Assembly: GCA_002704915.1 (NCBI GenBank) | Contig: PAIP01000007.1 | Span: 1 to 64,000 of the forward strand | From: Parvularcula sp. | GTDB lineage: Bacteria > Pseudomonadota > Alphaproteobacteria > Caulobacterales > Parvularculaceae | Direction of reading: 5' to 3' | Length of the DNA stretch: 64,000 nucleotides | In this document: one piece after another, positions 24,623 to 54,073 of the stretch | Layout: every line of letters starts with the position of its first letter | Numbering within the stretch: the stretch's first letter is position 1 | Notes under the pieces: model-generated | The model's database searches: none | What the model was told of the DNA's origin: nothing | The model's input: only the letters and a program-made list of their open reading frames with translations | Position numbers and translations under genes: made by a program

Positions 24623-24660
24623 CCCTCTCCCCCTTGGGGGAGAGGGCTGGGGTGAGGGGG
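24623..24660 (+). repeat. REP-like palindrome with GGGGTGAGGG tail, copy A
   Basis: Perfect 11-bp stem CCCTCTCCCCC-TT-GGGGGAGAGGG followed by CTGGGGTGAGGGGG. Together with copy B at 24745-24784 it forms an inverted pair whose tails face each other, with about 85 bases between. Confidence 0.8.
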
Positions 24661-24744
24661 TAAAGCGAAAGAACGAGATCTAAATGATCCATTTCCCGGC
24701 CAATACAGCCGACAAACGCACCATCGCGCCGCATGGACAGCTCG

Positions 24745-24784
24745 CACCCTCACCCCAACCCCTCTCCCGCGAGCGGGAGAGGGG
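24745..24784 (-). repeat. REP-like palindrome, copy B (inverted partner of A)
   Basis: CACCCTCACCCCAA followed by a perfect 12-bp stem CCCCTCTCCCGC-GA-GCGGGAGAGGGG. This is the tail-then-palindrome orientation, inverted relative to copy A. It ends 2 bases from the thiD stop and could act as its terminator. Confidence 0.8.
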
Positions 24785-48191: not shown

Positions 48192-48479
48192 CTATTCGAT
48201 GACTAAATTGAATAAATCAGGCGACGAAGCCTCTAACTGTTTCATTACGTTTAGATACTTGCTCACATAGTCTCGCAGCGGCGTTGGAAGACTGCTCAAT
48301 CCCGAGACGAATACCGTGTCGCCGCTGCAAAACTCTTCAAAGCACTCTTCGAAAGCATCGAGGTTACGGCCATAATAATCAGAGAAAGCAAACTCTCTCG
48401 CCACTAGATCGTGGAAATCACTTTCCGATCTGACGGCTTCAAGATTGAGGCGCTTGGCAGCCACGCTAGTTTTCGCCAA
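48192..48479 (-). CDS. Barstar-family (barnase inhibitor-like) protein
   Basis: 95 residues. The barstar core is recognisable: [33 protein letters not shown], with YGRNLDAF as the hallmark, then strand [11 protein letters not shown] and helix [14 protein letters not shown]. Barstars block barnase-type or related RNases by covering the active site. No barnase-type toxin is encoded in this window, so it is an orphan. The start overlaps the ruvB stop by 14 bases, and the gene is AT-richer than ruvB, so it looks like an acquired rider on the ruv operon. Confidence 0.8.
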
Positions 48480-49506
48480 ACAAATCCGACGCCGCGCCCT
48501 TCGGCGCGGGCAATCCGAGATGCGCCCAGGCGCTGACGGAAAGAACGCGGCCGCGGGGCGTGCGCTGGATGAGGCCCTGCTGCAACAGGAAGGGTTCGAT
48601 CACATCCTCGACAGCGTCGCGCGCTTCGGCGAGGGCCGCGGCGATGGTTTCAACGCCCACGGGACCGCCGCCGAAATGCTCCGCAATCAGACGAAGATAA
48701 CGCCGGTCGAGCGGATCAAGACCTAGGACGTCGATTTCGAGACGCTTCAGCGCCTTGTCGGCGACCGCCGCGTCAATGACGCCGGCTCCTTCCACCGTCG
48801 CCACATCGCGCACGCGGCGCAGCAGCCGCCCCGCGACGCGGGGCGTCCCGCGCGCCCGGCGCGCGATTTCTCCGGCGCCGTCGGCGGACATCTCGGCTTT
48901 CAACAAAGCTGCGCCGCGCGAGACGATGCGCGCGAGATCTTTTTCAGAATAGAAATCGAGACGCACGGGGATGCCGAACCGGTCGAGCAGCGGTTTGGCG
49001 AGCAGCCCCGAGCGCGTTGTCGCTCCGATCAGCGTGAAGCGCGGCAGATCGATCCTGACCGAGCGCGCCGCCGGACCTTCGCCGATGATGAGATCGAGGG
49101 CGAAATCCTCCATCGCGGGATAGAGCACTTCCTCGACATGGGGCGACAGGCGGTGAATCTCGTCGATGAACAAGACGTCGCCGGCTTCGAGATTGGTGAG
49201 CAGCGCCGCAAGATCGCCGGGCTTGGTGATCGCGGGGCCCGAGGTCGCGCGGAAGCTGACTTCCAGTTCATTGGCGACGATCTGCGCCAGAGTCGTCTTG
49301 CCGAGGCCCGGGGGCCCGTGAAACAGCACGTGGTCGAGCGCCTCGCCGCGCGCCTTCGCGGCTTGCACGAAAACCCGGAGATTGTCCTTGGCGCTCGGCT
49401 GACCGACGAAATCGTCGAGCTTTTTCGGGCGCAGCGCCGCATCGGCGTCTTCTCCCTTGCGCTCGCCGTCAATTAAACGGTCATCTTTGTAAGCAGGTTC
49501 AGCCAT
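48466..49506 (-). CDS. ruvB: Holliday junction branch-migration motor RuvB
   Basis: 346 residues. AAA+ ATPase with Walker [14 protein letters not shown] (residues 62-73), Walker [11 protein letters not shown], sensor region [11 protein letters not shown] and a C-terminal winged helix ([20 protein letters not shown]) for DNA binding. RuvB forms hexamers that drive branch migration with RuvA. It is the last ruv gene, separated from ruvA by a 490-base insert containing the DUF559 unit, and its end overlaps the barstar gene. Confidence 0.97.
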
Positions 49507-49522: not shown

Positions 49523-49974
49523 CCCCTCTCCCGCTTTGCGGGAGAGGGGCCGGGGGTGAGGGTGCTCTTTAAGCTTCATAACCCAAGTTCTTTTTGCATC
49601 AGCGCGCATAACTGATCTTCATTCATCGCGACCTCCGCAGATATGCGCAACATGCGCCACCCGCTTTCGACAATTTCTTTTTCTCGCACGGCATCGCGTT
49701 CAGCAACTGCCGGCAATTTGTGGATGCCGCCATCGATCTCAATAGCAAGCTTCGCTTTCACGACAGCGAAGTCTACAACAAAGCGGCCTACTCCGTGTTG
49801 ACGGCGCACCGGAAATCCATGCTTGCGAAACTCGCGCAAAACTTCCCACGCCATTTGCTCCGGCTTATTTGCAAATTGCCTTAGTTTTCTCGCTCGCTTT
49901 ATATTTCGGCGTGGTTCCATATGGGAAAACTTCCACCCTCACCCCCGGCCCCTCTCCCGCCAGCGGGAGAGGGG
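49523..49974. mobile_element. Putative small mobile unit: DUF559 gene between inverted palindromic ends
   Basis: Left end (49523-49564): a 12-bp stem CCCCTCTCCCGC-TTT-GCGGGAGAGGGG followed by CCGGGGGTGAGGGTG. Right end (49933-49974): the inverted copy, CACCCTCACCCCCGG then CCCCTCTCCCGC-CA-GCGGGAGAGGGG. The two ends are near-identical inverted repeats of about 41 bases, with tails facing inward and a single DUF559 gene filling the interior. The unit splits ruvA from ruvB, which are normally adjacent. No transposase and no clear target duplication seen. Mobility is an inference from layout. Confidence 0.55.
49576..49920 (-). CDS. DUF559 endonuclease-fold protein
   Basis: 114 residues. The DUF559 family belongs to the PD-(D/E)xK nuclease superfamily near very-short-patch repair enzymes (Vsr). 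Visible core: an Arg-rich start (RRNIKRARKLRQFANKPEQ), LREFRKHGFPVRRQHGVGRFVVDF with Asp50, then AIEIDGGIHK with Glu61 and Asp63 as metal ligands, and SGWRMLRI. It is the complete domain and nothing else, the usual size for such genes, which often exist in several copies per genome. Same orientation as the ruv genes, so it is probably carried on the ruv transcript. Activity untested; a DNA nicking or mismatch role is possible. Confidence 0.85.
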   Translation of the reverse strand: MEPRRNIKRARKLRQFANKPEQMAWEVLREFRKHGFPVRRQHGVGRFVVDFAVVKAKLAIEIDGGIHKLPAVAERDAVREKEIVESGWRMLRISAEVAMNEDQLCALMQKELGL

Positions 49975-49996: not shown

Positions 49997-50629
49997 TTAC
50001 GCCGCCGCCAGTTCTTTGAGCGCCGCTTTAATAAGCGCTTCAACGCCGGGAGAGTCCATGCCTTCCGCGGCGCGGGCGACGGCGCGGCGCGCCTCAACGC
50101 CGTCATAGCCGAGATTGGCGAGGGCCGAGACGGCGTCCGCCTTCGCCGCCAAAGCGGGATCGGACGGCGCCGCGGCGGCGACCTTTTTACGCGCGGCCAT
50201 GGCGATCACTTCGCCTCCGGCGCCGGCGAGCGCGCCGGCCTTTGACTGCAATTCGGTGACGATGCGCTGGGCGAGTTTCTTGCCCACCCCATGGGCGCGG
50301 GAAACCGCAGTGACGTCTTCCGCCGTCACCGCGTCGTAAAGTTCGGACGGCGTCAGCACCTGTAAAATCCCGAGCGCATGTTTCGCGCCGACCCCTTGCA
50401 CGCTTTGCAAAAGACGAAACGCCTGACGCTCATTCTCGGACGGAAAGCCGTAAAGCCGGATCAGGTCTTCGCGCACCAATGTCTCAATAGACAGCGTCGT
50501 CTCGTCACCCGGCGTCAAACCTTGCAGCACGCGCGGCGCGGCGTGAATTTCATAGCCGACGCCATTCACATCGATGATGGCCGTATCTTCCGCCAGCGAG
50601 ATGACAACGCCTTTCAACCTGCCGATCAT
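49997..50629 (-). CDS. ruvA: Holliday junction DNA-binding protein RuvA
   Basis: 210 residues. N-terminal OB-fold (MIGRLKGVVISLAEDTAIIDVNGVGYEI), central helix-hairpin-helix pair (LQSVQGVGAKHALGILQVLTP, RAHGVGKKLAQRIVTEL) and a flexible linker to the C-terminal domain that contacts RuvB (ALANLGYDGVEARRAVARA). RuvA tetramers clamp the four-way junction. Start and the ruvC stop abut exactly (50629/50630). The ruvB gene normally next in line is displaced by the DUF559 unit. Confidence 0.97.
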   Translation of the reverse strand: MIGRLKGVVISLAEDTAIIDVNGVGYEIHAAPRVLQGLTPGDETTLSIETLVREDLIRLYGFPSENERQAFRLLQSVQGVGAKHALGILQVLTPSELYDAVTAEDVTAVSRAHGVGKKLAQRIVTELQSKAGALAGAGGEVIAMAARKKVAAAAPSDPALAAKADAVSALANLGYDGVEARRAVARAAEGMDSPGVEALIKAALKELAAA

Positions 50630-53893: not shown

Positions 53894-54003
53894 GGGATGC
53901 CTGTTATGGGATAGCGTTACACTGACCAGTTTACTTAGCCTCATTTTGCGCGGCCGCCGCCCTATTTCAAGGGGGAGGGGGTAAATTTTGATGACTACCT
54001 CCG

Positions 54004-54023
54004 CTCTCCCGGTGGCGGGAGAG
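54004..54023. repeat. Degenerate copy of the CTCTCCCG palindrome family
   Basis: CTCTCCCG-GTGG-CGGGAGAG. It lies between coq4 and the DUF2794 gene with a GGGGGAGGGGGT stretch 20-30 bases to its left. Shorter arms and a different loop mark it as a diverged member of the family seen at 24.6, 24.8, 49.5 and 49.95 kb. Confidence 0.6.
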
Positions 54024-54073
54024 GGTTTCGCACGCTGCGAGAAGGTAGCCTTTGGCGGAATCCGGAGAAGCCG

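Follow-up and report, generated by a model that had tools for sequence, protein, structure and literature searches.

The RAYT/REPIN system consists of a Y1 HUH transposase gene with inverted palindromic repeats on either side, and of dispersed doublets that lack the gene, the repeat being matched to the enzyme. In this system a GTAG or CGTC tag adjoins the palindrome. Insertion sequences with MITE derivatives are characterised by inverted ends, a derivative formed by internal deletion, gene-less copies and empty sites. DUF559 is listed in Pfam as a family whose function is unknown.

The BoxC repeats of E. coli, also called PIT or TM, were described in the 1990s and occur in more than 260 genomes; according to the accessible text of Holder et al. 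2015, they have no established function or means of spread, the mechanism of spread is unclear, and the E. coli motif forms a triplex in vitro (PMC4666352). The word endonuclease does not appear in the main text of that paper, as far as it is accessible (PMC4666352). In the accessible parts of other reports, the E. coli protein YcjD was related to Vsr (PMC1189080), a DUF559-containing gene was placed in the EDxHD homing family (PMC9403480), and the DUF559 protein VsrA of Caulobacter was functionally tied to a cytosine methyltransferase (PMC12907096). A search of the open-licence literature returned no earlier report that links DUF559 to these repeats.

The window, a stretch of 64,000 nucleotides from a Parvularcula sp. 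contig (PAIP01000007.1, positions 1 to 64,000), carries a DUF559 gene enclosed by inverted repeats between ruvA and ruvB (Table 1). An earlier note on this DNA had described this arrangement; its coordinates were right, and both the ends and the Pfam match were verified. The end at 49523-49564 reads CCCCTCTCCCGC-TTT-GCGGGAGAGGGG-CC-GGGGGTGAGGGTG, and its inverse copy is found at 49934-49974. The inner 27 nt of the two ends match at 100% in inverted orientation, and the two ends differ in the hairpin loop (TTT versus CA). The same window holds a gene-less doublet at 24623-24784, absent from the earlier note, which is a candidate non-autonomous derivative of the repeat family of the unit. A Barstar-like ORF (48192-48479; Pfam Barstar, 1e-13) lies downstream of ruvB and overlaps its end by 14 bp.

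Table 1. Features of the window associated with the DUF559 unit and its repeat family
Feature	Position	Strand	Description
DUF559 gene		49576..49920	-	Vsr-like PD-(D/E)XK nuclease, 114 aa; PF04480, 2e-21
Upstream end (relative to gene)	49934..49974	-	C-arm/G-arm hairpin, CCG second loop
Third arm of upstream end			mirror arm GGGGGTGAGGGTG aimed into unit (locus L005: R arm GGGAGAGGGG, tail GGGGTGAGGG, inward)
Downstream end	49523..49564	+	inverse orientation of upstream end, tail into unit; inward-facing pair
Whole unit	49523..49974	.	between ruvB and ruvA, outer span about 450 bp
ruvB	48466..49506	-	downstream neighbour
ruvA	49997..50629	-	upstream neighbour
Gene-less doublet	24623..24784	.	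inward-facing, same repeat, MITE/REPIN-like, outer span about 161 bp
Single hairpin copy	54002..54026	.	degenerate; third arm not seen by eye

With at most one mismatch, the 12-mer was present seven times in the window; shuffled sequence contained it 0.86 times on average, and a count of seven was attained in 0 of 100 shuffles. Across the genome to which the window belongs, the palindrome (at most two mismatches) was located at about 35 places and a reversed control pattern gave 0 matches. DUF559 was found once in this genome, together with ten close repeat pairs that contain no DUF559 gene, nine of them in the 19 stretches read and one in the window; the tails pointed inward in all ten, and five combined a short-loop end with a hairpin-loop end.

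Comparison of the repeats revealed a common rule, which holds at both window ends: a pyrimidine arm is followed by a purine arm and by a third arm that mirrors the purine arm. The sequences themselves vary by locus (R arms are, for example, GGGAGAGGGG, GGGGGAGG and GGGGAAGGG), and the G-rich tail repeats the purine arm in mirror order, an A of the arm being faced by A or T. Among the nearest hairpins on each side of the gene, for which the tail was not a selection criterion, 165 of 198 had a perfect mirror third arm; when tails were swapped between loci, 200 shuffles gave a mean of 23 and a maximum of 36 perfect mirrors. Where the arms were asymmetric, 141 of 166 fitted as a mirror versus 26 of 166 as a direct copy. 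The second loop is either short (TTA, CCG and similar) or a small hairpin. A G-quadruplex built from four G-runs was considered as the conserved feature and set aside, since the hairpin-loop variants keep the mirror arm. Judged from their sequence, the window repeats have the intrastrand-triplex arrangement described for E. coli BoxC/PIT/TM. Hairpins occurred at a density of 2.72 per kb in DUF559 flanks versus 0.044 per kb at more than 1 kb, and the enrichment near DUF559 on which the earlier note had staked its proposal is thus present. At the distant positions, 18 of 26 hairpins also obeyed the mirror rule, and dispersed copies have thus retained the structure too.

The association between DUF559 and the repeats was surveyed in a family set of 62 genomes, 40 of which had a DUF559 hit (67 of 70 hits were analysed and three weak ones left out), in a class sample limited to the 30 best loci out of a larger number, and in a named-genome set. 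For the last, patterns from the clade of the window detected 338 relatives, of which the best 79 were taken and four then dropped for short flanks. Removal of duplicates left 166 pooled loci, 160 of them with usable flanks. Ends were scored as matched when arms scoring at least 16 were found within 300 bp on both sides of the gene; minus-strand loci were left unturned in the family flank test, which is symmetric, and the result is therefore unaffected. Inverted matched ends were found at 78 of 160 unique DUF559 loci versus 1 of 423 control ORFs from the same stretches (Fisher p 2.8e-50), and inverted or direct matched ends at 96 of 160 versus 4 of 423. As the loci are related by descent and the pairs are not independent, such p values are optimistic and overstate independence. 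No inverted pair was found around the 199 small ORFs used as controls. Slid-interval controls for inverted arms gave 1 of 1874, 3 of 2628 and 0 of 89; the control for direct arms in the named-genome set was less clean, with arms scoring at least 16 in 23 of 2628 slid intervals versus 30 of 75 DUF559 loci.

At the threshold used, 64 of the 160 loci had no matched repeat of either orientation, and pairing is therefore common but not universal. The earlier note would have given up its proposal if most DUF559 genes lacked such flanks; the inverted arrangement accounts for just under half of the loci, and those with inverted or direct ends for the 96 given above. For 65 loci both ends could be oriented, 43 having both ends inward, 6 both outward and 16 mixed. 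Matched ends were also present at DUF559 loci of Pseudoxanthomonas, of two Chloroflexota MAGs and of Chthonomonas, and on a Sphingomonas plasmid a DUF559 unit with such ends was seen by eye inside a transhydrogenase operon. Enrichment near DUF559 and matched inverted ends together support, at the level of sequence, a dependence between gene and repeats of the kind put forward in the earlier note.

Counting of the pattern CCTCYCCCN{0,14}GGGRGAGG in the 62 family genomes gave a median of 13 copies per genome with DUF559 (n = 40) versus 1 without (n = 22; p 2.4e-6), and reversed-pattern controls gave 0-2. Copies are also present in certain genomes that gave no DUF559 hit (20 in G034 and 9 in G007), which is explicable by relics or incomplete assemblies, but also by independence of the repeat from the gene. 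In the family of genome G075, which comprises four genomes only, there were 35 copies with DUF559 versus 3, 8 and 1 without. Y1_Tnp hits were obtained in 12 of the 62 genomes (10 over the cut-off), the window's own included. The Y1 gene of the latter (G000:C36:23750-24103, L249) appeared IS200-like by eye. When repeats were compared by shared k-mers, loci of the same nuclease clade in other genomes and with other neighbours shared 0.156 (221 pairs), and loci of another clade in the same genome 0.031 (17 pairs; p 1.5e-7 versus the same-clade pairs). Thus the type of repeat depends more on the nuclease than on the host genome.

The boundaries of the unit were visible in genome G013, which has two DUF559 loci, located on different contigs, with 91% identity to each other. 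Their similarity stops about 35 bp or less from the outer edges of the repeats (left GTTCCTCCCCCG, right CGGGGGAGGAAC), with more sequence available on the contigs. The near-complete genome G075 contains two open DUF559 units whose hairpin starts are 405 and 417 bp apart, one gutted DUF559 fragment (profile 56-108) with hairpins 295 bp apart, and seven gene-less doublets with hairpins 87-100 bp apart. Full, deleted and gene-less copies alike share the inverted ends (10 of 10), and each of the ten (L263-L272) has one short-loop and one hairpin-loop end, perfect mirror arms and an inward orientation. In the congener G208, both the DUF559 unit and the doublet of G075 that were tested are absent, the flanks being about 83% identical.

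In the genus of the window, 26 ruvA-ruvB junctions from 25 genomes were readable: seven have gaps of 3-29 bp, three carry DUF559 units and 16 hold other sequence. Evidently, the ruvA-ruvB junction of this genus is a hotspot for insertions. Gap contents other than ruvA, ruvB and DUF559 were identified by eye. The 16 other inserts are mostly unrelated small ORFs, and several unrelated small ORFs were noted in the ruvA-ruvB gaps at L190, L193, L195, L205, L210 and L214; the gap at L191 is a gene-less triplex-type doublet, and that at L207 combines an ORF with a single repeat of this type. Other inverted palindromic repeats, maybe of further families, were noticed in the gaps at L198, L203 and L209. 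DUF559 was also found at ruvA-ruvB in two species outside the genus, which brings the total to five species. An empty allele, which the earlier note had called for, therefore exists in the short ruvA-ruvB gaps of 7 of the 26 junctions and in the G075 congener that lacks both tested elements, and these empty sites support its view of the block as a compact mobile unit.

Target duplication, the other trace of insertion that the earlier note had proposed to look for, was seen at some sites only. The ten G075 elements taken as a set had a mean longest flank match of 5.7 versus 5.3 by chance, with L265 alone reaching 9 bp; since this does not exceed chance, no fixed staggered cut is evident. A duplication of 24 bp was present at soxR of E. 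coli (see below), and longer duplications of host genes were found at ruvB and astB. Three of the five DUF559 units at ruvA-ruvB (L199, L214 and L110) have a remnant of the ruvB start on their upstream side, and at L019 the unit lies between duplicate starts of a gene identified by eye as astB. Judged by sequence, the elements in these cases seem to have entered the start of the downstream gene, of which a second copy remained intact. Outer direct repeats exceeded the 99.5% null at 24 of 159 loci (0.8 expected) and were by eye mostly extra copies of the repeat; ruvB (L062/L107, L057/L109, L068/L110) and astB (L019) were counted as host-gene duplications, and L023 and L053 were left unclassed. 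At L199, two successive remnants of the ruvB start precede the unit, each followed by a hairpin of the triplex type, which suggests that insertion occurred there twice.

In E. coli, ycjD is annotated as DUF559, and 3361 of 5426 genomes cover at least 80% of its region. Triplex-type repeats were found on one side of the gene, downstream towards fabI; no such repeat was found in the 580 bp upstream of ycjD. From length, loops and pairing, we infer that the 37-nt E. coli copies represent the BoxC motif. If the pairing is true, ycjD becomes a candidate partner of BoxC. Between soxR and ghxP, a doublet of 154 bp is inserted in strain 118UI and accompanied by a perfect duplication of 24 bp, and MG1655 and Z0117EC0051 are empty at this site; for 152 records the best match to the insert had at least 99% identity, and the 40 matches listed were all of full length. 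Other intergenic regions did not qualify as clean empty sites: in yijF-gldA, argE-ppc and yraQ-dolP the aligned strains hold other sequence, REP-like by eye, and in alx-sstT a doublet alternates with a single hairpin. The sapF-fabI interval (L226-L229) holds either ycjD with its repeats or an efflux operon as alternative contents, as also found in the accessible part of a published account (PMC12817139), and is thus not a clean empty site.

The window protein matched only DUF559 and REase_MTES_1575 in Pfam at 0.001, and no transposase family in Pfam matched it. Alignment of 45 sequences showed E21, D50, E61 (E61-x-D63), D63 and D76 to be invariant, and by analogy a catalytic role may be assigned to these acidic residues. 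A structure model of the protein (pLDDT 84.8) matched the Neisseria endonuclease-like protein 3hrl (5e-5) and the homing endonuclease I-Bth0305I (3r3p; TM 0.62/0.71, E 3e-4) in a fold search. Matches to Vsr were weaker (1cw0/1vsr, E 0.02-0.05; for 1cw0, TM 0.62/0.47 and E 0.02). Two mitoribosomal proteins (9i05) matched at 3e-4, similar to 3r3p, and were given no weight. A sequence profile search returned 3hrl at 7e-29 and 3r3p at 8e-6. The Vsr-like PD-(D/E)xK fold ascribed to DUF559 in the earlier note is in keeping with the modelled match to 3r3p and, more weakly, with that to Vsr.

Taken together, these data suggest that the window block is probably a compact mobile element encoding a nuclease, with inverted triplex-type ends, MITE-like doublets and a RAYT/REPIN-like way of working. 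The DUF559 nuclease would recognise the folded end of its own family and would nick or cut there, after which host repair or replication may copy the bounded segment elsewhere. Gene-bearing units would supply the enzyme, and doublets without the gene would be moved in trans, like MITEs or REPINs. A wider proposal, to which we give slightly less than an even chance, is that of a new class of mobile element in which a Vsr/homing-type nuclease recognises intrastrand-triplex DNA and copies the flanked segment via nicking and repair, BoxC/PIT/TM being its non-autonomous population from E. coli to Alphaproteobacteria. The pairing gives a testable role to both the BoxC/PIT/TM repeats and DUF559, and could explain the spread of a repeat family of unknown origin. 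If the proposal is true, a DNA triplex or mirror repeat is a possible recognition signal.

Other explanations of the same data were weighed. The repeats may be spread by host processes, such as slippage, template switching or gene conversion at folded DNA, or by another enzyme, with DUF559 simply riding between two copies. Inconsistent target duplication, the persistence of copies in genomes without DUF559 and the collapse of the E. coli alx-sstT doublet to one hairpin by deletion would agree with such a passenger, and the accessible text of Holder et al. 2015 describes deletions and mutations around the motif and leaves the mechanism open (PMC4666352). We nevertheless consider a passenger unlikely, since a single gene family occupies 78 of 160 loci as against 1 of 423 for other genes, the type of repeat tracks the nuclease clade, and the copy number tracks the presence of DUF559. 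Another possibility is transposition of the repeats as REPs by a RAYT or an IS200-type Y1 transposase, with DUF559 incidental. Y1_Tnp hits in the family, the own genome among them, and their weak association with higher repeat counts (p 0.043) speak for it. Against it, the effect of DUF559 persists among the 50 genomes that gave no Y1 hit (p 5.6e-6), and the 3.35-kb locus of the Y1 gene in the window's own genome is free of such hairpins; we regard this explanation as very improbable.

Two further readings keep the nuclease active in another role. It might act in a homing-like manner, cutting unit-less alleles, into which the unit and its flanks would be copied by recombination; the repeats would be by-products or terminators. 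Apart from 3hrl, I-Bth0305I is the best match of the nuclease (fold 3e-4; profile 8e-6), a DUF559-containing gene lies in the EDxHD homing family as defined in the accessible part of that report (PMC9403480), and host-gene duplications stand beside units (ruvB start at L199/L214/L110; astB, by eye, at L019). Units and gene-less doublets are, however, found at many sites of one genome, and homing alone does not account for gene-less copies that are dispersed and share both ends with the unit, which makes this reading quite unlikely. Slightly less credible again is an ordinary repair nuclease of the very-short-patch or mismatch type, whose gene would be insulated by hairpins acting as bidirectional terminators. 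None of the 199 neighbouring small genes is so flanked, the third arm that mirrors the purine arm is needless for a terminator, and the same ends are present without any gene; the tie of Caulobacter VsrA to a cytosine methyltransferase, reported in the accessible part of its source (PMC12907096), and the weak fold match to Vsr (E 0.02-0.05) are what favours it. The nuclease-encoding mobile element accordingly remains our preferred reading of the unit.

Compared with known systems, the repeats are closest to BoxC/PIT/TM: as described in the accessible text of Holder et al. 2015, those have a hairpin with a mirror G-rich third arm, a TTA or CCG second loop, inverted pairs of type A and type B, and many copies in many genomes, all in common with the repeats studied here (PMC4666352). 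The difference is that no association with mobile elements was seen there (PMC4666352), whereas here the repeats end units that code for DUF559. The EDxHD homing endonucleases (I-Bth0305I) and Vsr appear from the model to have a catalytic fold in common with DUF559, but in our case the gene stands alone, with inverted triplex-type ends and dispersed gene-less copies, and no intron or intein was noticed in a non-systematic look. A homing endonuclease would be expected in an intron or intein, or beside its cut site in a conserved gene; DUF559 units were seen at ruvA-ruvB in five species and at many other sites too. Inverted ends, an internal-deletion derivative, gene-less copies and empty sites are found here as in IS elements with MITE derivatives; the protein differs in having no transposase match in Pfam, and regular target duplication was not seen in the G075 set. 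With RAYT/REPIN, the unit has in common a flanked enzyme gene, dispersed inverted gene-less doublets and a repeat type matched to the enzyme. It differs in that the window enzyme is a PD-(D/E)XK nuclease and not a Y1 HUH transposase, and in the mirror third arm of its repeat; by eye, GTAG and CGTC are absent from 49523-49564 and 49934-49974. Of the RAYT/REP-like logic with a nuclease put forward in the earlier note, the dispersed inverted doublets bear out the likeness, and the Y1 domain and the GTAG/CGTC tag, as marks of membership, are missing, so that the unit seems to work like RAYT/REPIN without being a member. If this is true, the logic of an enzyme plus REPINs has evolved independently, with a nuclease replacing the transposase.
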